Positions 2,238-28,507 of a stretch of DNA of 42,293 bases are shown in pieces. Below the pieces are notes generated by a model. The model did not search any database. It was not told the DNA's origin and saw nothing but the letters and a program-made list of their open reading frames with translations. Location: assembly GCA_009885805.1 (NCBI GenBank), contig VFJZ01000066.1:1-42293 (forward strand), written 5' to 3'. Positions within the stretch are counted from its first letter, which is position 1, and every line of letters starts with the position of its first letter. The translations under genes and the position numbers were made by a program. The DNA is from Actinomycetota bacterium (lineage in GTDB: Bacteria > Actinomycetota > Thermoleophilia > Gaiellales > F1-60-MAGs149).

Positions 2238-2753
2238 TCAGACGCCCCACTCCGAGTCGGTGACAGGGAACAGCCCCTGCAGCTGCTCGGCGCCGCGGCG
2301 GTAGACCATGAACGTCCGGCGGAACTCGATCACGACCTCGCGGCGCTGGTTGACGCCGCGGGTGCGGATACCGACGATGCCGACGTGCGGCCGGCTCGCC
2401 GACTCCCGCTTCGAGAGCACCTCGGACTCGGCCCAGAGCGTGTCACCGACGAACACCGGCTTCGGCATGTGGATGCCGTCCCAGGCGAGATTCGCCATCG
2501 CGTTCTCGCTCACGTCGGTCACCGACAGACCCGTTACCAGCGCCAGCGTGAAGGCGGAGTTGACGAGCGGCTTCCCGAACTCCGTCCGCTCCGCGAAGGC
2601 GTTGTTGAAGTGCGACTGGTTCGTGTTCATGGTCAGGTTCGTGAACCAGATGTTGTCGGTCTCGGTCACGGTGCGACCGAGCCGGCTGCGGTAGACATCG
2701 CCGATCTCGAAGTCCTCGAACAGCCGGCCCTGCCAGCCATCGACAACGGCCAT
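2238..2753 (-). CDS. MaoC-like hot-dog fold dehydratase/hydratase
   Basis: The 171-aa product resembles MaoC-family enoyl-CoA hydratases, including 2-methylfumaryl-CoA hydratase-like proteins. Visible family features are the early FEDFEIGDVYRS segment, a TVTETDNIWF helix start with following Asn/His residues (NTNQSHFN), and the PVFVGDTLWAESEVL strand pair. Single-domain MaoC proteins add water across a 2-enoyl-CoA double bond. The start codon shares one base with the stop of the upstream acetamidase-like gene (TGATG), so the two are tightly coupled. Substrate is not readable from sequence. Confidence 0.85.
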   Translation of the reverse strand: MAVVDGWQGRLFEDFEIGDVYRSRLGRTVTETDNIWFTNLTMNTNQSHFNNAFAERTEFGKPLVNSAFTLALVTGLSVTDVSENAMANLAWDGIHMPKPVFVGDTLWAESEVLSKRESASRPHVGIVGIRTRGVNQRREVVIEFRRTFMVYRRGAEQLQGLFPVTDSEWGV

Positions 2754-4270: not shown

Positions 4271-4358
4271 GCCGTGCGCTCCTCCGGAGCATCGTCGCAC
4301 TGCATTCGCCACCGCACGCAAGGGCCTCCGCTGCGCTCCGGCGGTTGCGTGCTCACGC
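4265..4358 (-). repeat. 94-bp two-hairpin intergenic element, copy 1
   Basis: On the minus strand the element runs from the last codon and stop of the alpha/beta hydrolase gene to the ATG of the GAF-acetamidase gene, exactly filling their 82-bp gap. It differs at only 6 positions from copy 2 at 10790-10883. Hairpin 1 (4314-4352) has an 8-bp outer stem, GCACGCAA with TTGCGTGC, beginning right after the stop codon. Hairpin 2 (4271-4303) pairs a bulged 7+5 bp stem with one mismatch; its 3' arm carries the ribosome-binding site and ends at the start codon. One outer pair of hairpin 1 changes from A-T here to G-C in copy 2, which supports pairing. Confidence 0.85.
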
Positions 4359-9027: not shown

Positions 9028-9792
9028 ATGCGACTGCGAGACAAGGCGACACTGGTGACGGGCGGCGGCTCCGGCATCGGGCGCGAGACGGCGCTCCGGT
9101 TCGCCGCCGAGGGAGCGCGCGTCGCCGTCGCCGACGTGCGCGCGGAGGCTGCCGCCACAACTGCGGCGGAGATCGGCGGTGATGCCGTCGCCGTCACGAT
9201 CGACGTCACTGCGCGAGCGTCGGTGGAGGCCGGCGTCGCGACGGCAGTGGCGGCGCTCGGCGGGCTCGACGTGCTCGTCTGCAACGCGGGCGTCACGATC
9301 GTCGGCTCGGTGATGGACCTGACCGAGGAGCAGTGGGACGCCGAGCTCGACACGAACCTGAAGTCGATCTTCCTCTGTGCGAAGGCAGCCTGGCCGCACC
9401 TGGTCGCCGGTGGCGGCGGCTCGATCCTCTCGACCGCCTCGATCGCCGGCACCTGGGCGATCCCCGACGACGCCGCCTACTGCGCGTCGAAGGCGGGCGT
9501 GATCATGCTGACGAAGTGCATGGCGCTCGACGGCGCGAAGGTGAACGTCCGCGCCAACTGCGTCTGCCCCGGCTACACGCAGACGCCGATGATCGAGGGC
9601 TACTTCCAGGCGCAGCCCGACCCGGAGGGCGCCCGCGCCTTCGCCGCCGGGATGCATCCGCTCGGCCGCCTCGGCGTGCCGGCCGACCACGCCGCCGCCT
9701 TCGTCTACCTCGCCTCCGACGACGCCGCCTGGGTGACGGGCACCGCGCTGGTCGTCGACGGCGGCCTCACCTGCGGGGTGTGGGGAGGCTGA
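9028..9792 (+). CDS. short-chain dehydrogenase/reductase (SDR)
   Basis: The 254-aa classical SDR has the dinucleotide motif GGGSGIG (residues about 12-18), VCNAGVT, the catalytic Ser in STASIAG, and the YCASK catalytic pair. The C-terminal VVDGGLT segment is typical. An Asp-rich VAVADVR at the end of the second strand suggests NAD(H) preference. It likely oxidises a hydroxyacyl or alcohol intermediate of the same operon. The last 26 bp overlap the 3' end of the convergent LLM gene, a tail-to-tail overlap with no room for a terminator. Confidence 0.9.
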   Translation: MRLRDKATLVTGGGSGIGRETALRFAAEGARVAVADVRAEAAATTAAEIGGDAVAVTIDVTARASVEAGVATAVAALGGLDVLVCNAGVTIVGSVMDLTEEQWDAELDTNLKSIFLCAKAAWPHLVAGGGGSILSTASIAGTWAIPDDAAYCASKAGVIMLTKCMALDGAKVNVRANCVCPGYTQTPMIEGYFQAQPDPEGARAFAAGMHPLGRLGVPADHAAAFVYLASDDAAWVTGTALVVDGGLTCGVWGG

Positions 9793-10795
9793 GGAGCGGG
9801 AAGACGCGCTCCGCGGCACGGCGCATCGATGCCTGCACGAGCTCGTCCGGCATGCCCGGCCAGCCGAACCGGAAGATCAGCGTCGTCAGGCCGAGCCGGT
9901 CGACCTGCTCCTGCAGCTCGGCGGCGCAGCGCTCCGGTCCACCGATCACGAACCGCCCGCCGGCGGCGAGTTGCTCCCACTCGCGGTCGATCGTGTCGCC
10001 CGCCGGTAGCGCCTCGTCCTGCCCCCACTGCACGTACGCCCGGTACTTCGACTCGAGATAGGGACGGGCCTCGCGCACGGCGGCGCCGTCGTCCGCGCCG
10101 ACGTACAGCTCCTTGATCGTCGCCAGTTCGGTGACGGGCGGCCGGCCGGCGGCGACTCGCGCGGCGTGGAACAGACCGACCTGGCGCTCCAGTTCGGCGA
10201 CGTTGGTGTGGGGGTTCAGCAGCCACGAGTCGGACAGGCGCGCGGCCCGTTCGACGGCTGCGTCGGCGTTCGCGGCGATCCAGATCGGCGGCCGCGGGCG
10301 CTGGACCGGGAGCAGAGCGAGCCGCTGCTCGTGCAGGCGGTAGCCGGGGCCAGCGGCGGTGACCGTCTCGCCCTCGAGTAACCGGCGGACGACGGCGAGC
10401 TTGTCGGTGAACACCCGCACGCGCCGCCCGTCGACGCCGAACGCCTCCTCCTCGGGCTCGCGGTAGCCGAGGCCGACACCGAGTACGAAGCGGCCGTCAC
10501 AGATCGCGTCGAGCGTGGCGGCGTTCTCCGCGACCTCGACCGGGTTCAGCAACGTCAGCAGCAACACACCGGTGTGGAGTCGCATCTCGCCCGCCTCGGC
10601 GGCGACGCGCGCGAGCAGCGGCACCGGTTGGGGCATCTGGTACGGGTCGGTGAGGAAGTGCTGACCGGCGGCGACGATGTCGAAGCCGAGATCACGGGCG
10701 AGTCGGGTCTGTGCACAGGCCTCGGCGATGATCCGGGTCGGCCCGACCGTGTCCGACTGCTGGACGTTGAGGAAGATCCCGACCTTCACGCTCAT
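9767..10795 (-). CDS. LLM-class (F420-dependent) flavin oxidoreductase
   Basis: The 342-aa product starts MSVKVGIFLN at 10795; the frame opens further upstream only through the repeated intergenic element. LARDLGFDIVAAGQH, LHTGVLLLTLLNPVEVAE and CDGRFVLGVGLGYREPE mark a bacterial luciferase-like monooxygenase/oxidoreductase. It is only distantly related to the LLM protein at 6828. Its ribosome site (AAGGAG) lies in the 3' arm of a predicted hairpin of the intergenic element, 8 nt before the ATG, so initiation may be structurally limited. It is the last gene of the cyclase-methyltransferase-DUF3891 cluster. Confidence 0.88.
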   Translation of the reverse strand: MSVKVGIFLNVQQSDTVGPTRIIAEACAQTRLARDLGFDIVAAGQHFLTDPYQMPQPVPLLARVAAEAGEMRLHTGVLLLTLLNPVEVAENAATLDAICDGRFVLGVGLGYREPEEEAFGVDGRRVRVFTDKLAVVRRLLEGETVTAAGPGYRLHEQRLALLPVQRPRPPIWIAANADAAVERAARLSDSWLLNPHTNVAELERQVGLFHAARVAAGRPPVTELATIKELYVGADDGAAVREARPYLESKYRAYVQWGQDEALPAGDTIDREWEQLAAGGRFVIGGPERCAAELQEQVDRLGLTTLIFRFGWPGMPDELVQASMRRAAERVFPLLSLPTPRR

Positions 10796-10883
10796 GCCGT
10801 GCGCTCCTTCGGAGCATCGTCGCACGGCATTCGCAACCGCGCGCAAGGGCCTCCGCTGCGCTCCGGCCGTTGCGCGCTCACGC
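10790..10883 (-). repeat. 94-bp two-hairpin intergenic element, copy 2
   Basis: This copy fills the 82-bp gap between the DUF3891 stop codon and the start of the second LLM gene, plus a few flanking bases. Hairpin 1 (10839-10877) has the outer stem GCGCGCAA/TTGCGCGC starting directly after the stop. Hairpin 2 (10796-10828) pairs GCCGTGC with GCACGGC and GCTCC with GGAGC around a GAA loop. The AAGGAG ribosome site is in its 3' arm and the ATG follows the stem. Relative to copy 1 there are six differences: one compensated pair, one that repairs a mismatch, and one in the hairpin 2 loop. Confidence 0.85.
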
Positions 10884-13874: not shown

Positions 13875-14043
13875 CTGCTGGTCGCTCCTCGGTAGGACTG
13901 GGCGGAGCGTACTACGCGCGCTCCCCCACACAGCCGGCAACTGTGCCGTCGCTCGCGAAGCCGCGGGCCACGGTCGCCCGGCTCGCGGTTCGTGCCGTCG
14001 CGGGGTCATTCTCGATCTGAAGTCGAACGTTAGACAACACAGA

Positions 14044-14071
14044 TTGACCAACGCGTTTCTCGCACTATACG
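14044..14071 (+). promoter_or_regulatory. sigma-70-like promoter for the haem peroxidase gene
   Basis: TTGACC at 14044-14049 and TATACG at 14066-14071 are 16 bp apart. They stand in a locally AT-richer part of the 341-bp gap (13875-14215) between the HTH gene and the peroxidase gene. Transcription would start near 14078, leaving a leader of about 138 nt. No other convincing promoter was seen in this gap on the plus strand. Confidence 0.5.
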
Positions 14072-14081
14072 GGCTTACCTC

Positions 14082-14115
14082 CCCGAACGGGTAGGAAGGA
14101 ACCCGCTCTTTCGGG
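14082..14115 (+). other. hairpin in the 5' leader of the peroxidase gene
   Basis: CCCGAA pairs with TTCGGG and CGGGT with ACCCG, with a CTCT bulge on the 3' side and the purine-rich loop AGGAAGGA. It lies just downstream of the predicted promoter and about 100 nt before the start codon. It does not match a riboswitch class I know, including the Mn-sensing yybP-ykoY type. It may stabilise the leader or act as a regulatory fold. Confidence 0.4.
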
Positions 14116-14215
14116 CAGTAGGACACGATTCCATGAGGATTTACCGTGGTTTTCAGCAGTCTCACCCCCGGGGCTGCTTGCGCGCGTGCAAACGCGATCG
14201 AAGGGTGGTCGGTTC

Positions 14216-17200
14216 ATGAGACGACGGACTATGCGAAGAGGGTTAGGCGCCGTTCTCGGCGTCGCGGCCCTGATGGGAGGAGGCGCGGCGAACGCGTCGG
14301 CCGCCGAGTTCATCAGGTCCGACCTCGACTTCGTCCTCCAACAGATCAGGATCGCGGAGGCCCACGCCGGCGGCGGCGATCTCCTCGGCCCCGGCGCGAA
14401 TCAGGTCGGCAGCCCCGTGCTGCCGTTCGGCCTGCGTACCGTCGACGGCTCCTTCAACAACCTGCAGCCCGGGCAGGAGGACTTCGGCGCAGCCGATCAG
14501 CTCTTCCCCCGGATGCTCAATGCGACAGGCTCCTTCCGCGCTGGCCAGGCGTTCGGCGACTTCGGCAGCAGTATCACCCAGGACGTCGACGGACCCGGCC
14601 TGAACCAGAACATCGGCGATGCGACGTCGTACGCGAGCGGTCGCAACGTTTTCGACACCGGGCCGCGCGAGGCGTCGAACCTGGTCGTCGACCAGACCGC
14701 CCGGAATCCCTCGGCCGCTCAGGAGGCGCTCGAAACCGGCGCGTTGACCGTCGACGACGGCAAGGCGAACATCGATCCGTTCTTCTTCGGTAACGTCGCG
14801 CCGGACGAGGGCCTGTCCGCCCCGTTCAACACCTGGTTCACCTTCTTCGGCCAGTTCTTCGACCACGGCCTCGACCTGCTCACGAAGGGCGGCAGCGGCA
14901 CGGTGTTCGTGCCCCTGAACGACGACGACCCGCTGATCGCGGGTGACAACGGCATCCTTGGTGACGCCGACGACTTGCCGGCGGCGATGCAGTTCATGGC
15001 GCTCACCCGCGCCACGAACCTGCCCGGCCCCGACGGCATCCTCGGCGACAACCTGCTCACCGCCGGCGACGAGAGCGCCGACGACATCCACGAGCACACG
15101 AACACGACGACGCCGTTCGTCGACCAGAACCAGACGTACACCTCGCACCCCGCCCACCAGGCGTTCCTGCGTGAGTACGAGCTGAACCTGGCCGGCCTGC
15201 CCGTCGCGACCGGCGCCATGGCCGACGAGCCACGTGTCGGCGGCGGTCTCGCCCGCTGGGCCGATGTCAAGGCACAGGCTCAGGCGATGCTCGGCATCGA
15301 GCTGCGCGACATCGACGTGCTCAACGTGCCGCTGATCATGACCGACCCGTACGGCCGGTTCTCGCGCGCCGGAAACAACTTCGCGCAGCTCGTTCCGGAC
15401 ACCGATCCCGGCCCGGGCGTCACGCCTGGCGCGCCGATCGCGGGCGATCCCGCGGCGAACGGCGGCCTCGGCATCTCGACGATCGACGCGGTCAAGACCG
15501 GCCACGGCTTCCTCGACGACATCGCCCACGCGGCGGTGCCGTTCGGCGACACCGACGGCAATCCCGGCACTCCGAAGGGACCTCTGGCCCCGGACGCCGA
15601 CCTCGTCATCACGGCCGGCCCTCAGGCCGTCGGCGAGTACGACGACGAACTGCTCGACGAGCACTTCATGACCGGTGACGGCCGCGGCAACGAGAACATC
15701 GCGCTGACGACCGTCCATCACGTCTTCCACGCCGAGCACAACCGCCAGGTCGGCCTCATCAAGACGACGATCAACGCGCAGCCCGACGCCGCCTTCCGCA
15801 ACGAGTGGAAGATCGGCGCCCTCGCCGCCGAGGCGACGAACGAGTGGAACGGCGAGCGCCTGTTCCAGGCGGCCCGCTTCATCACCGAGATGCAGTACCA
15901 GCACCTCGTGTTCGAGGAGTTCGCTCGCAAGGTGCAGCCGCAGATCAACATCTTCGCCGGCTACCAGAGCGAGATCAACCCGGCGATCGTCGCCGAGTTC
16001 GCCCACACGGTGTACCGCTTCGGCCACACCATGCTCACCGAGGAAGTCAGCCGGACGACGGCGGCCGGCCTTGACGCCAGCGAGCGTCTCCTGACCGCAT
16101 TCCTGAACCCGGAGATGTTCGACGAGAACGAGAGCCTGTCCGCCGCCGAGGGTGCCGGCCAGGTTGTCCGCGGCACGACGCGAACGCGGGCGAACGAGAT
16201 CGACGAGTTCATCACCGACGCAGTCCGCGACAACCTCGTCGGCCTGCCGCTCGACCTCGCCGTGCTGAACATCAGCCGCGGCCGGGACACCGGCATTCCG
16301 TCGCTGAACGAGGCGCGCCGACAGTTCTTCGCGTCGACGAGCCACTCGGCACTGCGTCCGTACGAGAGCTGGAACGACTTCAAGCTCGGCCTGAAGAACC
16401 AGCACTCGATGGTGAACTTCCTGGCCGCGTACGGCACACACGCCACCATCACGGGCGCGACGACGGTGGCAGCGAAGCGCGACGCCGCGATCGCGATCGT
16501 CTACGGCCCGAACGGTGCTGACGGCATCCTCGCCGACGACGTGCTCACGCTCGTCAACGAGGCGGCCGACAATCCGACCGCTCCCCAGCCGCCCGACGCG
16601 GCGGACTTCCTCGCCAGCCCCGCCTCTAGCTCCGGCGTCGACTCGATCGACTTCTGGATCGGCGGCATCGCCGAGCGCACGTGGCCCTTCGGCGGCCTGC
16701 TCGGCTCGACCTTCAACTACGTCTTCGAGACGCAGTTGGAGCACCTGCAGGACGGCGACCGCTTCTACTACCTCGGCCGCACCGCGGGGATGAACTTCCT
16801 CACGGAGCTCGAGGGCAACACGTTCGCCAGCATGATCATTGCGAACACCGACGTCACGCGCCTGCCGGCCGATGTGTTCTCCCGGCCGGACTACATCTAC
16901 GAGATGGCGCAGGTGCCGATCGTGCTGCCCGCAGTGGACGACCCGCTCACGATCGATGCCAACGAGTCGCAGCTGATCCGCATGGCGGACGGCACGGTGC
17001 GATTCGTCGGCGGCGAGCACATCGTCTTCGGCGGCACTGCCGGTCCCGACCGGATGCGTGCCGACGACGGCGACGACAGCGTCTTCGGTGACGGCGGGAA
17101 TGACCGGCTCGAAGGCGGCGCCGGCAACGACGCACTCGTCGGCGGTGAGGGCAACGACATCATCACCGACACCTTCGGCGACGACAACGTCAAGGGCGGG

Positions 17201-19192
17201 AATGGCCATGACGCCATCAACCCCGGCTCCGGCTTCGACCTCATCCTCGCCGGCAACGGTGACGACTTCACTATCGGCGGCGAGGATCCGTCCGAGACCT
17301 TCGGCGGCGGTGGCGACGACGTCATCGACGCCGGCGAGGACCACAACACCATCTTCGGCAACGAGGGTGACGACTGGATCCAGGGCGGCGACGGTGCCGA
17401 CCTGCTCCAGGGCGGCAACGGCGATCCGTTCCAGACGGACACCGTGACCGGCCACGACGTCATCATCGGTGAAGGCGGCAACGACGACTACGACTCCGAG
17501 GGCGGCGACGACATCATGGTCTCCGGCCCCGGCATCGAGCGCAACGAGGGCATGCTCGGCTTCGACTGGGTGACCCATCGCGGCGATCCGCAGGCAGCCG
17601 TGTCTGACATGCGGCTGACCGGCCTGCTGCCGCCCGACCTCGACAACATCCGCGATCGCTTCGACATCGTCGAAGGCCTCTCCGGATGGAACTTCAACGA
17701 CATCCTCCGAGGCGACGATCTCAACAACGCCGCTCCTCCCGGGATCATCAACAACGACCTGACGGAGGCGATGACCGATCCGGCCAACCCGGACGCGATC
17801 CAGGGCATCCGCGGCGTGCTCGGCATGCAGGCGGGCGACAACGCCACGCAGACGTCGTTCAACTCCGGCAACATCATCCTCGGCGGTGCCGGCAGCGACA
17901 TCATCGAGGGCCGTGGCGGCGACGACCTGATCGACGGCGACGCCTGGCTGAACGTACAGCTCGACGACGGCCCCGACGGCCTGCTCCCGCAGGACGACAT
18001 GGGTGCTTTCCAGGCCGCCATCTTCGCCGGCACGCTCGACCCGTCCGCGCTGCAGATCGTCCGCAGCATCGTCACCGGTGGTCCGACGAACAGCGACACG
18101 GTCGTCTTCTCGGACGTGTTCGCCAACTACACGATCACCGAGAACCCGCTCGACAACAGCTGGACGGTCGCGCACGACGACGCCCCGGCAGCTGATGGCA
18201 CCGACACCGTCCGCAACGTCGAGTTCTTCCAGTTCCTGGATGGCCTCGCCGCTCCGGGTACGGCCGTCACGCCGGGCGCGCTCGGCACGGTCGCTCTGGC
18301 CGGACTGACGCTCGGTGCTCCGACCGAGGACACGCCGATCGTGGCCACCCCGACCGTCACCGATCCCGATGTGGCGGCTCCGGGAGCGCTCGTGTTCACG
18401 TTCGAGTTCCAGGCCAACGGCATCCCCGTCGGTACGGGTGACACGTTCACCCCGACGGACGCCGAGGTCGGCCAGACGATCCAGGTTCTGGCGACCTACA
18501 CCGACGACAACGGCGTCGTCAAGACGGTCGCCTCCGTGGTGACTGGACCGGTCGTCAACGTCAACGACCTCCCTGGCGGGCTGCTGCGGATGAGCCGCAA
18601 CACGCCGCGGGTCGGTCGCGTGATGACGGCGATCAACCGGGTCACGGACGACGACGGCCTCGCTGGAGCGACGTTCGCGTTCCAGTGGGAGACCGAGACG
18701 GCCCCCGGCGTGTGGACGGACTCCACCGGCCCGAACGCCGACACCGACACCTACACCGTGGTCGTAGCTGATGGCGGCTTCCGGATGCGGGTGCGGATGA
18801 ACTACACGGACGACCGCGGGACGCCGGAGGAAGTCTTCTCCGACCCGACCGCGAACCCGACGCGCGTCAACCTCGTGCTCCTCGCGGCGAACGTGCCGGT
18901 CGGAGTGACGAGCAGCGCCGTCCGACGGCGCGGCCTTCCGATCGTGCTGCGAACACAGGGAAGCACCAGCCTGGTGCGGGTCCGCGTGTTCGACGCTCGG
19001 AACCCGAAGGCGGCGAAAGCCACCGTCTACGTCAAGGTCCGGTCGGGACGCGTCTCGACCGCGATCCGGAACGCCGCGGTGCGCCGCGTGCTCGGTAAGG
19101 GCGGCAGCTTCACGATCGAGCTGACCCCGGGTCTGACCCGGACGAAGCTCGGCGAGTCGACGATCCGCCGCGTGACGGTCGTCCGCCGCTAA
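14216..19192 (+). CDS. secreted animal-type haem peroxidase with RTX calcium-binding repeats
   Basis: The 1658-aa product starts MRRRTMRRGL at 14216, giving a basic-hydrophobic signal peptide ending near ANASA; a GTG 30 bp upstream is possible. The peroxidase domain (about 20-900) keeps the expected residues. The distal His is H217 in GQFFDHGLD. Catalytic Arg R490 and haem-linking Glu E493 are in GDGRGNEN. The proximal His is H604 in YRFGHTML, and NISRGRDTGIP follows. RTX nonapeptide repeats such as GGAGNDALVGGEGND lie at about 939-1062 and 1222-1242. Two Ig-like modules and a basic C-terminus end the protein. This architecture matches bacterial peroxicins and Mn-oxidising MopA-like proteins. 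The substrate is unproven; a strong terminator follows. Confidence 0.9.
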   Translation: MRRRTMRRGLGAVLGVAALMGGGAANASAAEFIRSDLDFVLQQIRIAEAHAGGGDLLGPGANQVGSPVLPFGLRTVDGSFNNLQPGQEDFGAADQLFPRMLNATGSFRAGQAFGDFGSSITQDVDGPGLNQNIGDATSYASGRNVFDTGPREASNLVVDQTARNPSAAQEALETGALTVDDGKANIDPFFFGNVAPDEGLSAPFNTWFTFFGQFFDHGLDLLTKGGSGTVFVPLNDDDPLIAGDNGILGDADDLPAAMQFMALTRATNLPGPDGILGDNLLTAGDESADDIHEHTNTTTPFVDQNQTYTSHPAHQAFLREYELNLAGLPVATGAMADEPRVGGGLARWADVKAQAQAMLGIELRDIDVLNVPLIMTDPYGRFSRAGNNFAQLVPDTDPGPGVTPGAPIAGDPAANGGLGISTIDAVKTGHGFLDDIAHAAVPFGDTDGNPGTPKGPLAPDADLVITAGPQAVGEYDDELLDEHFMTGDGRGNENIALTTVHHVFHAEHNRQVGLIKTTINAQPDAAFRNEWKIGALAAEATNEWNGERLFQAARFITEMQYQHLVFEEFARKVQPQINIFAGYQSEINPAIVAEFAHTVYRFGHTMLTEEVSRTTAAGLDASERLLTAFLNPEMFDENESLSAAEGAGQVVRGTTRTRANEIDEFITDAVRDNLVGLPLDLAVLNISRGRDTGIPSLNEARRQFFASTSHSALRPYESWNDFKLGLKNQHSMVNFLAAYGTHATITGATTVAAKRDAAIAIVYGPNGADGILADDVLTLVNEAADNPTAPQPPDAADFLASPASSSGVDSIDFWIGGIAERTWPFGGLLGSTFNYVFETQLEHLQDGDRFYYLGRTAGMNFLTELEGNTFASMIIANTDVTRLPADVFSRPDYIYEMAQVPIVLPAVDDPLTIDANESQLIRMADGTVRFVGGEHIVFGGTAGPDRMRADDGDDSVFGDGGNDRLEGGAGNDALVGGEGNDIITDTFGDDNVKGGNGHDAINPGSGFDLILAGNGDDFTIGGEDPSETFGGGGDDVIDAGEDHNTIFGNEGDDWIQGGDGADLLQGGNGDPFQTDTVTGHDVIIGEGGNDDYDSEGGDDIMVSGPGIERNEGMLGFDWVTHRGDPQAAVSDMRLTGLLPPDLDNIRDRFDIVEGLSGWNFNDILRGDDLNNAAPPGIINNDLTEAMTDPANPDAIQGIRGVLGMQAGDNATQTSFNSGNIILGGAGSDIIEGRGGDDLIDGDAWLNVQLDDGPDGLLPQDDMGAFQAAIFAGTLDPSALQIVRSIVTGGPTNSDTVVFSDVFANYTITENPLDNSWTVAHDDAPAADGTDTVRNVEFFQFLDGLAAPGTAVTPGALGTVALAGLTLGAPTEDTPIVATPTVTDPDVAAPGALVFTFEFQANGIPVGTGDTFTPTDAEVGQTIQVLATYTDDNGVVKTVASVVTGPVVNVNDLPGGLLRMSRNTPRVGRVMTAINRVTDDDGLAGATFAFQWETETAPGVWTDSTGPNADTDTYTVVVADGGFRMRVRMNYTDDRGTPEEVFSDPTANPTRVNLVLLAANVPVGVTSSAVRRRGLPIVLRTQGSTSLVRVRVFDARNPKAAKATVYVKVRSGRVSTAIRNAAVRRVLGKGGSFTIELTPGLTRTKLGESTIRRVTVVRR

Positions 19193-19218
19193 GGGGTCGA
19201 CCGACGATAGGAACGAAC

Positions 19219-19246
19219 CTGCGGGCCCGCTTCGGCGGGCCCGCAG
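19219..19246 (+). terminator. hairpin terminator of the peroxidase gene
   Basis: A perfect 12-bp stem, CTGCGGGCCCGC with its complement, closes on a TTCG tetraloop 27 bp after the peroxidase stop codon. There is no long T run, as is common in GC-rich actinobacteria. Just downstream, 19261-19274 is a perfect 14-bp palindrome (TCTGGAATTCCAGA) of unknown role. Confidence 0.75.
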
Positions 19247-19280
19247 TCGTCCTGGCCCGCTCTGGAATTCCAGACCCAGC

Positions 19281-19313
19281 GTGAAAGAGAGGGATCTGAT
19301 CCCTTTCTTTCAC
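19281..19313. terminator. bidirectional hairpin between peroxidase and regulator genes
   Basis: Two 16-nt arms, GTGAAAGAGAGGGATC and GATCCCTTTCTTTCAC, pair around a single T with one G-T wobble. The element lies between the convergent ends of the peroxidase and LuxR-type genes, 15 bp beyond the latter's stop. It would serve mainly as the regulator's terminator on the minus strand. Confidence 0.65.
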
Positions 19314-19328
19314 GCTTCCACGGCCCGG

Positions 19329-19997
19329 CTACTCCGCAGCAGGGACTGGCGCGACCGGCGGCGCGTACCGCTGGGCGATCCCTGCGGCCTGCGTCCGGTT
19401 CGTGACGCGGAGCTTGCGGTAGATGTTCGAGAGGTGGAACTTCACCGTCTGCTCGGTCACCCACAACTTCTCGGCGATCCCGCGATTGCCGACGCCTTCG
19501 GCGACGAGCTGGAGGATCTCGAGCTCGCGCGGCGTCAGTGGAAGGTCGGAGAGCGGCGGGAGACCCGGCGCAGCCACCACGGGCCGGCTCGGGCGATGGA
19601 AGATCGCGCCGCGCGCCGCCTGGCGGATCACCGCACCGAGATCGGACGGATAGACGGCCTTCGAGACGACACTGGTCGCGCCCGCCTCCAGAAGCCGCTC
19701 GATCACCTCGAGGTCGCCCGAGGTCGCGAGGACGACGATCCGGAGATCTTCCCATGCGGCCGCCAGGCGCCCGATCTCCCGCAGCACGCTCTCGTGCTCG
19801 CCGGCGTCGCCATCGAGCACGACGACGTCGACATCGCCGGCAGCGACCCTCCGTCCTGCGTCGGCGCTGCTCTCGGCGATCGTCACCTCGAGCTGGTCGA
19901 GACTCGCCAGGGCGGCTTCGACGACCGTGCAGAACAGCGAGTCGTCGAGCAGGAGCAGGGCACGCGCGGGGCTCCGGCGGTGGCGGAGGCGGTTCAT
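19329..19997 (-). CDS. NarL/LuxR-type response regulator
   Basis: The 222-aa product has a receiver domain with acidic pair D18-D19, candidate phospho-Asp D62 in VVVLDGDAG and Lys K113 in VVSK. A LuxR-type HTH follows (LTPRELEILQLVAEG, TEQTVKFHLSNIYRKL). I choose ATG 19997 although its ribosome site is weak. An upstream TTG at 20090 overlaps the -35 box of a good promoter, so the transcript should begin after it. No histidine kinase gene is adjacent, so the partner is elsewhere or the domain works without one. The gene is convergent with the peroxidase and divergent from the giant oxidase, well placed to control both. Confidence 0.85.
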   Translation of the reverse strand: MNRLRHRRSPARALLLLDDSLFCTVVEAALASLDQLEVTIAESSADAGRRVAAGDVDVVVLDGDAGEHESVLREIGRLAAAWEDLRIVVLATSGDLEVIERLLEAGATSVVSKAVYPSDLGAVIRQAARGAIFHRPSRPVVAAPGLPPLSDLPLTPRELEILQLVAEGVGNRGIAEKLWVTEQTVKFHLSNIYRKLRVTNRTQAAGIAQRYAPPVAPVPAAE

Positions 19998-20061
19998 GCC
20001 GCGCTGGGAGGGGATGGTTACGTCAGACAAACGATGCTCTCCGAACGACGAGGAAGCCGCC

Positions 20062-20090
20062 AATCTATTTGAATCCTTCTGAAAGGTCAA
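20062..20090 (-). promoter_or_regulatory. promoter of the LuxR-type regulator gene
   Basis: On the minus strand TTGACC (20090-20085) and TAGATT (20067-20062) are 17 bp apart, in an unusually AT-rich patch for this window. Transcription would start near 20055, about 58 nt before the chosen ATG, which supports the shorter protein start. Confidence 0.6.
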
Positions 20091-20188
20091 TACCCTCGAC
20101 CGGGTGATCCCTGGCCATACGTCCAGCGCCGGCCTCCCTATTCGAACAGTCCTGCAGGGTCGCCGAATCGATGTTCAGAAGAAATACC

Positions 20189-20249
20189 TACAATTGCAGG
20201 CGCGTTGACAGCGTCCCTGCAATTGTTCCCAAAGTTCTTCCAAAGGTTC
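20189..20249 (+). promoter_or_regulatory. candidate promoter/operator of the giant oxidase gene: inverted repeat plus tandem repeat
   Basis: ACAATTGCAGG (20190-20200) and its exact inverse CCTGCAATTGT (20216-20226) are separated by 15 bp. TACAAT at 20189-20194 could be a -10 box overlapping the left arm. TTGACA lies in the spacer (20205-20210) but has no clear -10 partner. Directly after come two 12-bp near-direct repeats, TTCCCAAAGTTC and TTCCAAAGGTTC (20226-20249). The rest of the 350-bp gap (19998-20347) holds the regulator promoter and a small GGCCGG/CCGGCC hairpin at 20296-20314. The inverted repeat could bind a dimeric regulator or form an RNA hairpin. Confidence 0.5.
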
Positions 20250-20347
20250 TCTGGTGGTACCTGCGGGATCGTGGTTTCACCTCCCTCCGAGGCGTGGCCG
20301 GATGTCCCCCGGCCAATACTGCCCCCCCGAACACAGCGAGAACCAAC

Positions 20348-23300
20348 ATGAGTCGAGTCGCCGCGACTATCCGCGTGCGTGCTGTCCTGGAGTACCTGCC
20401 CCTCGCCGTCGCCGGCGCCGTGGCAGCCGTCGCGACGCTCTCGCTGGTGCACGCCTCAGCGCATTCCCAGCCGATCGAGGTCGGCCCGTTCGCGCGTGAC
20501 ACCGCGCTGGCGCTGCCGTTCGCGCTGGTCGCACTGATCGTTGCCGGAGCCCTGGGGCGCCGCGCTGCCGTGAGCGCCGGACTCGGCGCCGCCGGCCGCA
20601 ACGGGCTCGAGGTCCTGATCGGAGCGGTGACGTTCGCCGCGTTGATGCTCCCCGCGGCGGAGCTTCACGTCCGCCTGTTCGTGCCGGCGGGCCAGGCTAC
20701 CGACGCCTGGGTCGCCCACGCGTTCGCCGAGTCCGGCGTCGTGCTCGGAGCGGCGACGATCGCGTTCGCACTCGGCCATCTCCTGCGCGCATTCCGCGGC
20801 GTCGCACCGGCGCGCCTCGGCTTCGGCGTGCTCGGCCTCGCCGCGATCGCGGGCGGCGTCGTCGCGGCCCCGGCGATCTCGGGCGGCGACCCGACCCAGA
20901 GTCTCCAGGCTTCGCCCAGCACCTGCACGGCAGCGAGCGCGGCCCGCACCTACGACGTGTCGGCGATGAACGTCCGCGTTCCCTTCAACCGCTTCGGCGA
21001 CGCCCTCGAGCACGGGATGACCTTCGTCCTCGACGGCGACCGGGCGGCCGTCGCCAACTGGTCGCGCCCGCTGGCGGCCAACGCCGCCGACGATCCGGCG
21101 AGCAACCGCCGTCTGCGTCCGCGCCCGCTGGTGCTGCGCGCCAACGAGGGCGAGTGCGTCCACATCCGCTTCACGAACCGTCTGGCCGGTACGCAGGAGA
21201 CCGGCATCCCGGTGAACCCGCGCGCTGCGATGCACGTCGCGGGTGCCTCGTACAGCGCCCAGACCTCGGACGGCGGCAACGTCGGCTACAACGACGACAC
21301 GACCGTCCCGAACGCCGACGATCCCGCAACGGCCGACGTGCACGAGAACCAGATCGACTACTTCTGGGTCGCCCCGAAGCGCGAGGGCTTCTACCTGATC
21401 CGCGACACCGCGACGCCCGCCGGTGGCGAGGCGGACGGCGGCTCGCTGTCGCAGGGCCTCTACGGCGCGCTCGTCGTCGAGCCGGCCGGCTCGACCTGGC
21501 GCGACGCTGAGACCGGCAAGCTCTTGTACCAGGAGACGGGCGACCAGTCCGGCGATCTGTACGTCGACGCGATCATCTCGCCGCCCGGCGGCCGTGCCTT
21601 CCGCGAGTCGGTGCAGATCTCGCAGGACGAGATCCCATCGATCGGGCTCGGCTTCAACTACGGCTCCGAGCCGGAGCGGAACCGCGACGCGCGCGCCTGT
21701 CCCGACTGCGTCTCGGAGGAGACGTCGCTCTCCTCCTGGACGTACGGCGATCCGGCTCTGATCAAGCTCGCCAGCGGCATCGGCCCGTGGCTGCCCGACG
21801 CGAGCGACAGGAACGCCGAGGACTGCGGACTCAGCCACTGCTACGTCTCGAACGTCTTCCACTCATACAACGGCGACCCGACGAAGGTGCGCTTCGGTCA
21901 CGCCGGCACGAAGGAGACGCACGTCTTCCACATGCATGCCCATCAGTGGTTGGCCGAGGACAAGGACGTCGGCGCGGCCGGACCGACCCCGTCGACGCCC
22001 GACGACGACCACATGCCCGAGTCGACGACGATCGACTCGCAGACCTACGGCCCGGGCGAGACGTTCACGGCCGACCTGCTGTTCGGCGCCGGCTCGAAGA
22101 ACGGGACGTTCGGCGACACGATCTTCCACTGCCACCTCTACCCGCACTTCGCGGACGGTTTCTGGTCGCTGATGCGCGTCCACGACGTGCTCGAGGGCGG
22201 CGCCACGCTGCTGCCCGACGGCGTCAAGGTGCGGAGCGTCGCCGTGCTTCCCGATCGTGCGGCCCTCGAGTCGCCGACGGCCATGAACCCGGGCTACCCG
22301 CGGATGATCCCGGGCAAGCCGGGCTGGCGGGCACCGCAGCCGCCCGGAACGGTGACGCTCGGCGGGCCCTCCGGCACGCCGGCACCGCGCATCGTCGCGG
22401 GCGAGGAACTGACGCTCGCCGACACCGCCGTCGAGCGGGCCGTCCAGGCGAAGTACTACGGCGACGCCGCCGACGCCGTTCCGGGCGCGCCGTTCAAGGA
22501 CCCGTGCCCGAAGGGCGCGCGCGCCGTGAACTACGACGTGTCGCTGATGCAGTGGAGCTCGGTGCAGAACAAGCAGGGCGACTTCGACCCGCAGGCGCGC
22601 TTCCTCGTGCTGTCGAAGGACGTCGCGGCGATCGTCGCCGGCACGAAGGAACCGGAGCCGCTGTTCTTCCGCGTCAACTCCGGCGACTGCATCAACTTCG
22701 CGATGACGAACCTCTCACCGAACTGGGTCGGCGGCGACGCCTACCTGAAGATCCGCCAGACGAACATGGCCGGCCAGCACGTCCACCTGGTCAAGTTCGA
22801 CGTGACCGGCTCGGACGGCTCGACGAACGGCTGGAACTACCAGCAGGCGGCCTTCACGGACGAGCAGGCGAAGTTCAACGAGGCGGTGCTCGCCGGGACG
22901 AAGGCCTGCAACGACACGCCCCGCGGCTGCACCATCCCCGACGTGCTCTACCACGATCCGCTGTACAAGGGCATCGAGGCAGGGCAGACGATCAATGAGC
23001 GCTGGTACGCCGACTACGAGCTGCGCACGGCGTTCACCCACGACCACCACTTCCCGGCCGTCGACCAGAATCGTGGCCTCTACGGCGCGCTGATCGTCGA
23101 GCCGGCCGGCTTCGACGTCCGCAACCCGAGCACGGGCGACTACTACCAGCCGATCAACGACGTCAAGCATGGCCCGACCTGTGGTGACGCCTGTTCCGGC
23201 GAGGCCGCTTCGACCCAGGTCGACGTGATCGGCCCGGGCGCCGGGGACGACTTCCGCGAGTTCGGGGTCGCGTTCCAGGACTTCGTCCCGAGCGTCAAGG

Positions 23301-25768
23301 CCGGCGGCGATCCGCACGTGCCGGGCGATGTCTGGAACCCGCCGACGACACCCGGGTCGCTCCCGCTCGGCGATGGCGTGATGACCGTCAACTACAAGAA
23401 CGCCCCGTTCCGCTATCGCGAGACGCTGAACGGGACGGGCGTCGATCCGGCCTACACGTTCTCGTCCCAGGTCTGGGGCGACCCGGACACGCCGATCCTG
23501 CGCGCCTACGCCGGCGACCCTGTCCGCATCCGCGCCATCCAGGGCTCCCAGGAGGAGCAGCACGTCGTCCAGATTCACGGCGTCAAGTTCAAGGGCGAGT
23601 CGAACGACCCCGAGTCGCCGCTCGTCCCGTCGAAGGCGATCGGCATCTCGGAGGCCCACAACATCGCCTTCGACGCCGCCGGCCTCGACTGCGCCCTCGG
23701 TGATCCCTGCCAGGCCGACTACCTCTACGGCTCCGGCGCGACCGACGACTACTACCTCGGCATGTGGGGCCTGATGCGCATCCACGGCCGGGCGCAGGAC
23801 GGTCTGCTGCCGCTACCGGACCACGCCGTTCAGGCGTCGCCCGTGCAGACAGCCGCCGCCCGCCTGCTCCGTGCGCAGCGGACGCTGACGCACGCACTCG
23901 CCAAGGGTGCCCGCCCGGCCTCGGTCCGCTCGAACGTCGGCAACGCCAGGCGGACGCTACGGCTCGTCCAGAAGGACGTCGCGTCCGCGAAGACGACCTC
24001 GTTCCGCCCCGTCGGGCGCGACATCTCCTCGGCCCTGCGGGTGACGAACGGCAAGCTGCAGCGGTCGAAGCTCCTGCGCGCGAAGCGGTTCGTGGCGAGG
24101 GCTCGCCGCGCGCTCGCGGCCGCCGCAGCGGCGCCGGTGGCGGCACCGGCCGTGACGGGAACGCCTCCCGCGCGCGTCACCGATCCCGGCAACCCGTGCC
24201 CGGGCGACGCTCCGGTGCGCTCGTACGACATCGTCGCCCTCAACCTCGACCTCAAGTACAACCGCTACGGCGACCACGACCCGCGGGGCCTGATGTACGC
24301 CCTCGCCGCGGACGTGGAGGCGCTCAAGGCCGGCGCGATGAAGCCCGAGCCGCTCGTCATCCGCGCCAACGAGGGCGACTGCATCGAGGTGCAGCTGTCG
24401 AACGAGATCGACGCGACCTGGGATGACGTGAACGCCGGCATCAACGGCGATCCACCGTTGCCGAGCGAGCTGCCGACCGGCACCCGCACGGGCCTCCGGG
24501 TCTCCCTGCATCCGCAGCTCGTCAGCTACGACGTCCGCGGTTCCGACGGCGCCACGATCGGCTTCAACGGCGACCAGACGGTCGGTCCCGGCGAGCCGCC
24601 GATCCAGTACCGCTGGTATGCCGACGAGGTCGCGAACGGCGAGCTCGGCATGGCGAACCTCGTGGACTACGGCGACATCCGTGGCCACCGCCATCACGGC
24701 CTCGGTGGCGGCCTCGTGATCGAGCCGCAGGGCTCCACCTGGCACGATCCACAGACCGGCGAGGAGGTCCTCAGCGGCGCAAAGGCCGACATCCGCGTCG
24801 CCGGTGCCAAGGACTTCCGGGAGAACGTCCTGTTCTTCCAGGACGGCCTGCACCTCCTCACCCGCAACAACGAGGTCATCCCGGATCGGCCGGCAACGAC
24901 GCCCGACCCCGACGAGCCGGATGCACCGCCGCTCACGGCCGACCTCGGCGAGAAGGCGTTCAACTACCAGAACGCCCCCTTCTTCCGGCGCCTCGGGCTC
25001 GCTCCCGGTGTCGAGATCACGGGCACCGCCGACGAGCTGTCGGGAGTGTTCTCCTCGAAGACGCACGGCGATCCGGACACGCCGATCTTCCGTGCCTACG
25101 AGGGTGACGCCGTTCGGATCCGCCTCGGTCACGCCGGCGACAAGCCGCTGCAGCACTCGTTCTCACAGTCGGGCGCAGTGTGGCTCGCCGAGGCGACCGA
25201 TCCCGGCTCGCGCCTGATCGACACGGTCGGTGGCATCGCCCCGGGCCGCGTCGAGAACATCACCATCCCCAGCTTCGTCAACCCCGCCGGCGACTACCGC
25301 TACGGCAGCCCCGCCGCCTTCCACCATCTGTCGGGCGGGCTCTGGGGCCTGATGCGAGTGTACGCCGCGCCCACCGGCCCGGCGGCGCTGTCGCCGACAC
25401 CGCTCCCGGCCGGGCCGGGACCGCAGAATCCGGACGATCCGCGCGCTGGCGGGCATCCGATCCTGCCGCTCGAGTCGGACACGATCCTCGTGTCGGCGTT
25501 CGAGGACCTGAACCGCAACGGTCGCAAGGACCGCGGCGAGGATCGGATCGCGGGTCTGACGGCAACCGTCATGTCCGGGAACACGGTCATCACGACGAAG
25601 CGCATCGGCGAGACAGGCAGCCCGCTGACCGTCGCCACGGGCAGCTACACCCTGCGGCTGACGCCACCGCCCGGCTGGCGACTGACGACGACCGCGAAGC
25701 CGAAGGTCACGACCAGGGGCAACAACGACCGTCGCGTCGTCCGGATCGGACTGCGCTACGTCGGTTGA
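20348..25768 (+). CDS. giant membrane-anchored multi-cupredoxin (multicopper) oxidase, MnxG-like
   Basis: The 1806-aa product starts MSRVAATIRV; the frame opens to 20171, but that part looks non-coding. Residues about 10-185 contain four to five hydrophobic helices. Three two-domain cupredoxin modules follow. Module A carries HVFHMHAHQW (H525-H532) and HCHLYPHF (594-601), the T1/T3 copper motifs. Module B carries HVHLVKFD (H811, H813) and THDHHF (H898-H901), the T2/T3 partner motifs. Module C keeps only remnants (HPQ at 1388, HRHH at 1447). The last 90 residues resemble an SdrD B-like domain (FEDLNRNGRKDRGED). Size and motifs resemble Mn(II)-oxidising MnxG; laccase-like iodide oxidase is an alternative. 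A 13-bp-stem terminator follows. Confidence 0.85.
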   Translation: MSRVAATIRVRAVLEYLPLAVAGAVAAVATLSLVHASAHSQPIEVGPFARDTALALPFALVALIVAGALGRRAAVSAGLGAAGRNGLEVLIGAVTFAALMLPAAELHVRLFVPAGQATDAWVAHAFAESGVVLGAATIAFALGHLLRAFRGVAPARLGFGVLGLAAIAGGVVAAPAISGGDPTQSLQASPSTCTAASAARTYDVSAMNVRVPFNRFGDALEHGMTFVLDGDRAAVANWSRPLAANAADDPASNRRLRPRPLVLRANEGECVHIRFTNRLAGTQETGIPVNPRAAMHVAGASYSAQTSDGGNVGYNDDTTVPNADDPATADVHENQIDYFWVAPKREGFYLIRDTATPAGGEADGGSLSQGLYGALVVEPAGSTWRDAETGKLLYQETGDQSGDLYVDAIISPPGGRAFRESVQISQDEIPSIGLGFNYGSEPERNRDARACPDCVSEETSLSSWTYGDPALIKLASGIGPWLPDASDRNAEDCGLSHCYVSNVFHSYNGDPTKVRFGHAGTKETHVFHMHAHQWLAEDKDVGAAGPTPSTPDDDHMPESTTIDSQTYGPGETFTADLLFGAGSKNGTFGDTIFHCHLYPHFADGFWSLMRVHDVLEGGATLLPDGVKVRSVAVLPDRAALESPTAMNPGYPRMIPGKPGWRAPQPPGTVTLGGPSGTPAPRIVAGEELTLADTAVERAVQAKYYGDAADAVPGAPFKDPCPKGARAVNYDVSLMQWSSVQNKQGDFDPQARFLVLSKDVAAIVAGTKEPEPLFFRVNSGDCINFAMTNLSPNWVGGDAYLKIRQTNMAGQHVHLVKFDVTGSDGSTNGWNYQQAAFTDEQAKFNEAVLAGTKACNDTPRGCTIPDVLYHDPLYKGIEAGQTINERWYADYELRTAFTHDHHFPAVDQNRGLYGALIVEPAGFDVRNPSTGDYYQPINDVKHGPTCGDACSGEAASTQVDVIGPGAGDDFREFGVAFQDFVPSVKAGGDPHVPGDVWNPPTTPGSLPLGDGVMTVNYKNAPFRYRETLNGTGVDPAYTFSSQVWGDPDTPILRAYAGDPVRIRAIQGSQEEQHVVQIHGVKFKGESNDPESPLVPSKAIGISEAHNIAFDAAGLDCALGDPCQADYLYGSGATDDYYLGMWGLMRIHGRAQDGLLPLPDHAVQASPVQTAAARLLRAQRTLTHALAKGARPASVRSNVGNARRTLRLVQKDVASAKTTSFRPVGRDISSALRVTNGKLQRSKLLRAKRFVARARRALAAAAAAPVAAPAVTGTPPARVTDPGNPCPGDAPVRSYDIVALNLDLKYNRYGDHDPRGLMYALAADVEALKAGAMKPEPLVIRANEGDCIEVQLSNEIDATWDDVNAGINGDPPLPSELPTGTRTGLRVSLHPQLVSYDVRGSDGATIGFNGDQTVGPGEPPIQYRWYADEVANGELGMANLVDYGDIRGHRHHGLGGGLVIEPQGSTWHDPQTGEEVLSGAKADIRVAGAKDFRENVLFFQDGLHLLTRNNEVIPDRPATTPDPDEPDAPPLTADLGEKAFNYQNAPFFRRLGLAPGVEITGTADELSGVFSSKTHGDPDTPIFRAYEGDAVRIRLGHAGDKPLQHSFSQSGAVWLAEATDPGSRLIDTVGGIAPGRVENITIPSFVNPAGDYRYGSPAAFHHLSGGLWGLMRVYAAPTGPAALSPTPLPAGPGPQNPDDPRAGGHPILPLESDTILVSAFEDLNRNGRKDRGEDRIAGLTATVMSGNTVITTKRIGETGSPLTVATGSYTLRLTPPPGWRLTTTAKPKVTTRGNNDRRVVRIGLRYVG

Positions 25769-25774
25769 ACACGA

Positions 25775-25822
25775 GCGCGCCGGGATCAGAGCGCCGCGTG
25801 GCGGCAAAGGATCCCGGCGCGC
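25775..25822. terminator. bidirectional terminator between giant oxidase and purK
   Basis: A perfect 13-bp stem (GCGCGCCGGGATC with GATCCCGGCGCGC) encloses an inner GCCGC/GCGGC hairpin. It fills nearly all of the 65-bp space between the convergent stop codons of the oxidase and purK genes and can act on both strands. Confidence 0.8.
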
Positions 25823-27403: not shown

Positions 27404-28507
27404 GTGCTGATCCTCTTGCCGCCGAGCGAGACGAAAGCAACGCCGCGGCGCGGCCGGCGGCTGGACCTCGCGACCCTGTCCTTCCCGGAACTGACCGCCC
27501 GCCGGGAGTCGCTGCTGGACGACGACCTTCGCGACGCGCCGACGCTCCCGGCTGCTCGCCTCTACACCGGCGTCCTGTACGCGGCGCTCGACCTGGGGAC
27601 GATCCCGGCCGCCGCCGCGCGACAGATCGTGATCGTCTCGGCGCAGTACGGGGCCCTTCGCCCGGCCGATCGCGTCGCGCCGTACCGGCGGCAGCTGGAG
27701 CCGTCGCACTGGCGCGAGACACTCGGCCCCGTCCTGACGGCCGCCGCCGGATCCGGTCTCGTGCTCGACTGTCGGAGCGCCGCCTACGCGGCGGCCTGGC
27801 GGCCGCCACCCGCGATCGCCGCCCGCACCGTTCACGTCGCCGTCGCGGAGGAACGTGACGGTGTGCGGCGTGCCGTCTCCCACCTGGCGAAACGGACGCG
27901 GGGCGAGGTCGTCAGGCACCTGCTGCTGACGCGCGCCCGCCCGCGGACGCCGCAGCGCCTGGCGGCGGCCGTCGGTGCCTGCTTCACCACCGAACTGGAG
28001 CCGCCGCCGCGGCCCGGCATGCCCTGGACGCTGACGGTCGTCCTGCACCGCCGCCGGTTCGTTCCGCCCGGCTTCGTTCCACCGCCGGGACTCGTCACCG
28101 AGCGCCTGGTGCTCGAACCGCTCGGGCCGCAGCACAACGAGCGCGACTACGCCGCCTGGACGTCGAGCGTCGCGCACATCCACGCAACGCCCGGGTTCGG
28201 CGACAGCGCCGATCCGTGGCCGGTGCCGATGACGCTCCGGCAGAACCTGGGCGACCTGGAGATGCATGCCCGGCATTTCCGTGACCGCGACGGCTTCACC
28301 TACACCGTGCTCGACCCGCTCGGCGGGGACGTGATCGGCTGCGTCTACATCTATCCGGGTGCCGCGGAGCGGACGGCCGCCGTGCGCTCCTGGGTGCGGG
28401 CGACACACGCCCACCTGGACGGCGAGTTGGACCGCGCCGTCGCGGACTGGCTCGCCGGGCCCGACTGGCCGTTCGCGGCCGTCAGCGACGCCCCGCGACC
28501 GCGGTGA
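27404..28507 (+). CDS. YaaA-family (DUF328) peroxide-stress protein fused to a GNAT-like domain
   Basis: The 367-aa product starts at GTG 27404 ([11 protein letters not shown]), the actinobacterial form of the YaaA N-terminus. [17 protein letters not shown] and [16 protein letters not shown] follow. E. coli YaaA limits iron-driven damage during hydrogen peroxide stress. From about residue 230 a second unit begins ([20 protein letters not shown]). It contains [11 protein letters not shown] and resembles an N-acetyltransferase fold, though the acetyl-CoA loop is not sharply conserved. Fusion of the two is unusual. The last 26 bp overlap the convergent M24 peptidase gene. Confidence 0.75.

Follow-up and report, generated by a model that had tools for sequence, protein, structure and literature searches.

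We analysed a window of 42,293 nucleotides, the whole of the analysed stretch of contig VFJZ01000066.1 (assembly GCA_009885805.1) from an Actinomycetota bacterium of the class Thermoleophilia, and focus here on positions 14216-25768, which hold three genes, those of an RTX haem peroxidase (plus strand), a response regulator (minus strand) and a giant multicopper oxidase (MCO; plus strand). Bacterial Mn(II) oxidation has been assigned to MCOs or to haem peroxidases and was studied mostly in Proteobacteria and Bacillus. We propose, with a probability of about one half, that the two enzymes form a cell-envelope module whose most likely task would be to oxidise Mn(II) to Mn(III/IV), the peroxidase serving as a second oxidase and/or as a peroxide sink. 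A preliminary description of this DNA had recognised an animal-type haem peroxidase with RTX repeats and a giant MCO placed around a LuxR/NarL-type regulator, and the open reading frame (ORF) calls together with Pfam and NCBIfam upheld that arrangement. According to the strands of the ORFs, the regulator is convergent with the peroxidase and divergent from the MCO, so that the two enzyme genes are not joined into one transcription unit.

The ORF of the MCO (20171-25768, plus strand) encodes 1865 amino acids, or about 1800 from the likely start codon ATG 20348, chosen according to where the membrane domain and an inverted repeat lie. Pfam recognised Cu-oxidase_2 (2.2e-8), and the sole NCBIfam family found on the protein was copper_ox_MnxG (NF041487), with 3.3e-119 and 399 bits distributed over 7 stretches, while a CueO-like MCO gave no MnxG match in the same comparison. 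This score misses the curated equivalog cut-off of 3100, which is of Pseudomonas type, but so do those of Paracoccus (520 bits) and Priestia (333 bits); further yardsticks are Rubrobacter (348 bits), the class II relative in locus L087 (218 bits) and the type-B MCO in locus L129 (140 bits). A sequence search of the PDB returned the MnxG structure 9bxa with an E of 1.5e-186 and 626 bits over most of the 9bxa chain, and the only other match was a weak one on a C-terminal SdrD-like domain. Alignment to 9bxa placed the copper motifs THVFHMHAHQW (residues 583-593) and HCHLYPHFADGFW (653-665) at 21917-22165, and HVHLVKF (870-876) and FTHDHHF (955-961) at 22778-23053, all on the plus strand. All copper-ligand motifs tested are present, namely the Cys and His of the type 1 (T1) copper and the His residues of the trinuclear site; the T1 ligands are Cys654 and His659, and the axial position is occupied by Phe664. 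The 9bxa equivalent of His659, position 340, is an Ala, presumably an engineered variant. The MnxG relationship advanced by the preliminary description thus holds, and the sequence of the MCO marks it as a genuine homologue of MnxG in the sense of the broad family.

Two traits distinguish this protein from its Bacillus and proteobacterial relatives. First, among the 27 MCOs of our tree, the residue ten positions after the T1 Cys is Phe in 15 (13/13 rows of the clade of the window MCO, G146_C69 and the MCO of G207) and Met in 12, including Priestia, three proteobacterial rows, Sorangium, Nonomuraea, Halomarina and Hymenobacter. By analogy with laccases, the absence of an axial Met would raise the T1 potential. 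Second, a hydropathy scan identified five hydrophobic segments at the N-terminus (ORF residues 69-236; 20375-20878, plus strand). Between 4 and 8 such segments are found in 12/13 rows of the same clade, the thirteenth (L016) being cut at its N-terminus; elsewhere, the four type-B rows have 4 or 5, L087 one close to its N-terminus, Paracoccus one, and Priestia and Sorangium none, G207 being outside the scan. The window MCO is therefore homologous to Bacillus MnxG (the MnxEFG complex; 9bxa) over most of the chain, with T1 and trinuclear motifs that align and an identity of about 30-36% to the Bacillus-type relative from Priestia, whereas the Bacillus-type proteins lack a membrane domain and present the axial Met. 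The gene context differs as well: small MnxE and MnxF genes stand directly upstream in Bacillus, and none like them was found beside the window MCO, where the upstream gene is the opposite-strand regulator. In the Priestia locus L094, two small ORFs, which we take to be MnxE and MnxF, precede the MCO. The proteobacterial MnxG proteins (NF041487; Paracoccus, Sphingobium, Indioceanicola) are also giant MCOs and form a sister group in the tree (17-row fork, 100/98), but they keep the axial Met in 3/3 rows, and in Paracoccus and Sphingobium the MCO is followed by SCO and cytochrome c genes that the window does not have.

The second enzyme is a 1658-residue protein (14216-19192, plus strand; ORF 14186-19192, start ATG 14216) in which Pfam detected An_peroxidase (4e-58) and RTX repeats (5.1e-19). 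Its catalytic region (14846-16885, plus strand) was delimited by Pfam, by alignment to 8s6c and by the motifs FGQFFDH (residues 211-217), PFVDQNQTY, GDGRGNE, EHNR, YRFGHT and NISRGRD; the haem-linking Asp and Glu positions, in FGQFFDH and GDGRGNE, are kept. The RTX calcium-binding repeats lie C-terminal of this domain (17018-17374, plus strand; Pfam and alignment). Excerpts of PMC6247904 give for MopA and the long peroxicins of Erythrobacter, Aurantimonas and P. putida a layout with an N-terminal peroxidase domain and hemolysin-type calcium repeats behind it. Pfam and motifs bear out the preliminary description in assigning this layout to the window protein; the likeness is one of layout and motifs rather than of alignment to a tested MopA. 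In our tree, which holds no tested MopA, the window peroxidase groups with eight proteobacterial relatives at 92/98, under the starred support level. In all eight of those proteobacterial loci a type I secretion gene lies downstream of the peroxidase, and seven also have an annotated response regulator nearby; the window peroxidase, unlike them, has no type I secretion gene beside it, which fits a Sec-type leader, recognised by eye only while the hydropathy scan at its threshold gave no flag. One of the eight loci is from Bosea, a genus in which a Mn-oxidising strain carrying a MopA-like gene is known (PMC5122683). Relatives also occur on plasmids. Of 32 records that match, 31 share 44-51% identity with the window protein across most of the catalytic region, and all matching records bear alphaproteobacterial names except two from Plesiomonas.

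Some observations on related peroxidases may be added here. The host genome encodes a second long RTX peroxidase on contig C19 (G000:C19; L057 273-6560, minus strand), the downstream side of which is cut by the contig end, and which groups with the peroxidases of G146, G018 and G335 (100/99). A serine hydroxymethyltransferase gene, possibly by coincidence, lies near the peroxidase or the MCO in two loci (L057 6911-8164, by Pfam; L129 83-1342, by eye). On plasmids of Limimaricola (L103 5523-15885) and Fuscovulum (L102 642-17580), the alphaproteobacterial peroxidase is accompanied by another kind of MCO, CueO-like in L103, and by an SCO protein, which adjoin it or lie 6 kb away; this may be a parallel pairing with another substrate.

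The pairing itself was followed through 399 genomes of the host's class, with a match threshold of E <= 1e-10 and only the best candidates of each genome scored; the MCO and peroxidase searches apparently used the same draw of genomes. Matches to the MCO were found in 5/399 genomes and matches to the peroxidase in 14, of which seven were strong (E < 1e-40) and seven weak, in shorter ORFs. Four of the five MCO-bearing genomes, those of the host (G000), G018, G146 and G207, have both genes at this threshold, for which the hypergeometric probability, a figure that ignores kinship, is 4.7e-6 when all 14 peroxidase genomes are counted and 1.1e-4 when the window genome is left out. The two genes share one contig and one strand in four of the five (G000, G018, G092 and G207). 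In G018 the MCO is split into two ORFs. In G092, a single contig carries the RTX/C-terminal part of such a peroxidase together with a small ORF and the beginning of the MCO, and the MCO contig of G207 likewise carries only the RTX/C-terminal part; by sequence, both parts probably belong to a peroxidase of this kind. In G146 the genes are on different contigs: the peroxidase lies 317 bases from the end of one, and a small ORF with an MCO stands at the end of another. Outside the class sample, the Acidimicrobiales OFTM10 metagenome-assembled genome (MAG) G408 provides a further linked case (L129 1402-12573, minus strand), in which the peroxidase, a small ORF and a type-B MCO overlap on the same strand, and a SARP/BTAD regulator gene reads away from the row. 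Both G408 enzymes end in C-terminal SLH domains, and therefore should share anchoring at the cell surface. The preliminary description had taken a confinement of the pair to one genome as grounds for giving up the idea; the pair is present in G018, G092, G207 and G408, and this objection falls. One further candidate was discarded: an RTX protein next to the MCO in L007 gave no match in the peroxidase-domain search. That protein (L007 15313-19818, plus strand; also in L008) has 1501 amino acids with repeats visible by eye and stands between the MCO and a small DUF4352-like gene. In a Chloroflexota MAG (L009 2135-15526, plus strand), type-B and type-A giant MCOs follow in tandem, with a small DUF4352-like gene before each.

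The linked genes belong to several lineages. In the MCO tree of 27 rows, the window protein falls into a clade of 13 rows (100/100) consisting of Actinomycetota, among them the cultured Kribbia dieselivorans and Rubrobacter marinus, and one Chloroflexota MAG, in agreement with the actinobacterial setting put forward earlier. A second clade (100/100) unites the MCO of G207 with G146_C69, and a third, of type B (100/100), holds that of G018 together with G092_C156, G146_C59 and a Chloroflexota copy; two linked MCOs outside the tree were placed by BLAST (G408) or by eye (the G092 fragment). The window and G018 peroxidases also fall into different groups of their tree. Since linked MCOs occur in three lineages, the pair was probably assembled, or one member swapped, more than once, and such repeated pairing across lineages speaks for a joint function better than inheritance alone would.

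The conserved partner of the pair is often a small DUF4352-like membrane protein and not the regulator. The preliminary description had set the regulator at the centre of the unit, a view we abandoned: between the enzymes lies a small DUF4352-like ORF in L056, L059 and L129, and nothing in L090. In L012 and L087, too, the MCO has a divergently oriented LuxR-type regulator. The small protein has about 190-230 amino acids, one membrane helix and often a His-rich tail. It adjoins the MCO in G018, G092, G146 and G408, is absent from G207, and in 10/13 named loci lies no more than about 7 kb from the MCO (none in L014; L017 and L018 being outside the model search). The name comes from a weak Pfam DUF4352 match, below the curated cut-off, in 6/13 proteins scanned, and from the Rubrobacter marinus record, which labels the protein DUF4352. 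Its AlphaFold model is a beta-sandwich (mean pLDDT 73.6) and, among the matches listed, is nearest to YcdA and YjhA (Z of 12.8 and 12.5). We dismissed a copper chaperone, the Z of 8.6 with PCuAC being too weak to use, and did not retain a relationship to MnxE/F, which were not among the matches listed, although this excludes nothing; a role in copper delivery or in sensing can only be guessed at. No DUF4352-like gene hidden in the window was found, and the sole match in the host is G000:C31:134374-134937. There, a row of four genes (G000:C31:134374-137945; L135 8372-11945, plus strand) encodes the DUF4352-like protein, a SARP/BTAD regulator, a histidine kinase and a receiver-only protein, possibly a sensing locus for the module.

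In the mechanism we envisage, the MCO would take electrons from Mn(II), then from Mn(III), and pass them through the T1 copper, whose potential the missing axial Met would raise, to O2 at the trinuclear site. In the same space, the peroxidase could oxidise Mn(II) itself, in the manner of MopA, and/or consume the H2O2 that would otherwise reduce Mn(III) and Mn oxides; excerpts of PMC6839870 and PMC6247904 describe Mn oxidation as supported by haem peroxidases and undone by H2O2. A plasmid copy of the MCO in Rubrobacter marinus has CopC, CopD, ZIP and CDF metal genes in its vicinity, which also counts in favour of the Mn reading. The divergent regulator may control the MCO through the inverted repeat ACAATTGCAGG...CCTGCAATTGT at 20190-20226, a possible operator that lies between the regulator and the MCO and whose pattern has no other match in the host genome. 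The regulator is a LuxR/NarL-type protein of 253 amino acids (ORF 19329-20090, minus strand; the inner ATG 19997 may be the start) with a GerE DNA-binding domain (2e-20) and a Response_reg receiver domain (1e-8).

Several results weigh against a joint role in Mn oxidation. No peroxidase domain was found at any of the 13 named MCO loci, for which the flanks were fetched, and 9/13 of the corresponding genomes are without any An_peroxidase. The remaining four have one somewhere, long in two (G400 and G408), and the two G400 peroxidases have no adjoining MCO in the stretches read. In a phylum sample, 10/396 genomes have an MnxG-like match (E <= 1e-10), and none of the eight MCO genomes outside the class, six of which are of one family, has a peroxidase by a query that gave matches in the class search but had no control of its own here. 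None of eight plasmid records bearing the peroxidase has an MnxG match. These class, phylum and plasmid counts mean that each enzyme is usually alone and that the pair marks the host's class and one Acidimicrobiales genome. In the window, an opposing gene and strong hairpins separate the peroxidase from the MCO, so this pair is not one operon, and neither enzyme reaches the curated equivalog cut-off of a proven Mn oxidase. The peroxidase contains no strict PERCAL motif (G-x-D-G-x(2)-[GN]-[TN]-x-D-D) in a motif scan; this motif, present in 4/7 other rows of the class and 2/8 proteobacterial rows, discriminates poorly. Finally, a peroxidase of this type does not have to act on Mn: MopA of P. putida GB-1, a strain that has both kinds of Mn oxidase (an MCO and a haem peroxidase), showed no activity in the strains tested, according to excerpts of PMC11930936.

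Four other explanations were compared with Mn oxidation. MCOs and haem peroxidases being broad oxidants, the two enzymes might attack extracellular material of a phenolic, lignin-like or humic kind, Mn acting as a mediator at best, and the axial T1 Phe of the window MCO is typical of high-potential laccases; but MnxG is the family that the protein matches, with no laccase or CueO-type family reaching E <= 0.001, and we regard aromatic oxidation as unlikely. Somewhat less credit goes to envelope building or peroxide defence, where the peroxidase would cross-link or protect the surface and the MCO detoxify copper or iron. The SLH domains on both G408 enzymes, the CopC and CopD genes near the Rubrobacter marinus copy of the MCO, and a YaaA-type peroxide-stress gene in the window would suit this explanation, against which stand the full-length MnxG homology and a six-cupredoxin size unlike that of CueO/CopA-type copper oxidases. 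Halide chemistry, in which a lactoperoxidase-like enzyme and the MCO would oxidise iodide or bromide, appears improbable: the closest solved structures to the peroxidase are indeed lactoperoxidases and peroxinectin, and the alphaproteobacterial peroxidase of Limimaricola adjoins a CueO-like MCO and an SCO protein, but the window MCO is of the MnxG type and not of that CueO-like type. IoxA-type iodide oxidases are extracytoplasmic MCOs too, and the window MCO is set apart from them by family and not by direct comparison; the iodide option of the preliminary description thus found no support in the MnxG type of the MCO, no IoxA sequence having been compared. The substrate of both enzymes is read from sequence features, which do not favour iodide. 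That the genes are neighbours by chance, with unrelated tasks, would suit genes that are usually alone and that form separate transcription units in the window, but it is very improbable, and we rejected it because linked loci recur in G018, G092, G207 and G408, with MCOs of other lineages.

Manganese oxidation thus remains our preferred explanation. A more elaborate version is possible but doubtful as a whole: an unnamed two-enzyme Mn module of Actinomycetota, assembled at least twice from different lineages of MCO and peroxidase, in which a membrane-fused, high-potential, Met-less MnxG-type MCO would work with an RTX peroxidase that both oxidises Mn(II) and clears H2O2, the DUF4352-like protein taking an accessory role like that of MnxE/MnxF.

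The preliminary description also had the locus bounded by strong terminators, which is accurate only in part. Strong hairpins do exist: a GC-rich one after the peroxidase (19219-19246), one with 19-bp arms between the convergent genes (19278-19316), both within a folded stretch with a z of -8.27, and one with 13-bp arms after the MCO (25775-25822, z of -4.61). The first and third are without a T-run and the second without a long one, the terminator scan listed none of the three, and no comparable hairpin was found in 14000-14220. Among the surroundings, nine neighbour genes scanned with Pfam have metabolic or stress functions (cyclase, methyltransferase, two luciferase-like monooxygenases, dehydrogenases, peptidase, pyridoxal-phosphate enzyme and YaaA), with no histidine kinase or metal transporter among them. 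The gene next after the MCO is purK, beyond which, 1.6 kb past the MCO, lies the YaaA-type gene (27404-28507, plus strand). An ORF of 1310 amino acids antisense to the peroxidase (14243-18175, minus strand) is probably an effect of composition. The first 20 residues of two other minus-strand ORFs (2753-4321 and 9767-10846) are nearly identical (LRAVANAVRRCS-GAHGMS), which suggests a repeated stretch of upstream DNA.

Each kind of enzyme is already known, and an organism carrying both has been described. No linked pair with this membrane-fused, Phe-type arrangement, nor the linked pair as such, was found in the open-licence literature searched, preprints excluded, and excerpts of studies on ferromanganese sediment of Lake Baikal and on Mn oxide from hot springs (PMC10386581, PMC9224936) contain nothing on a linked pair. 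A locus that couples both kinds of enzyme and was probably assembled more than once would make their cooperation testable with two genes, and the window MCO offers a natural Met-to-Phe variant of the T1 site of MnxG. The locus also widens the range of candidate Mn oxidisers to include little-studied Actinomycetota.

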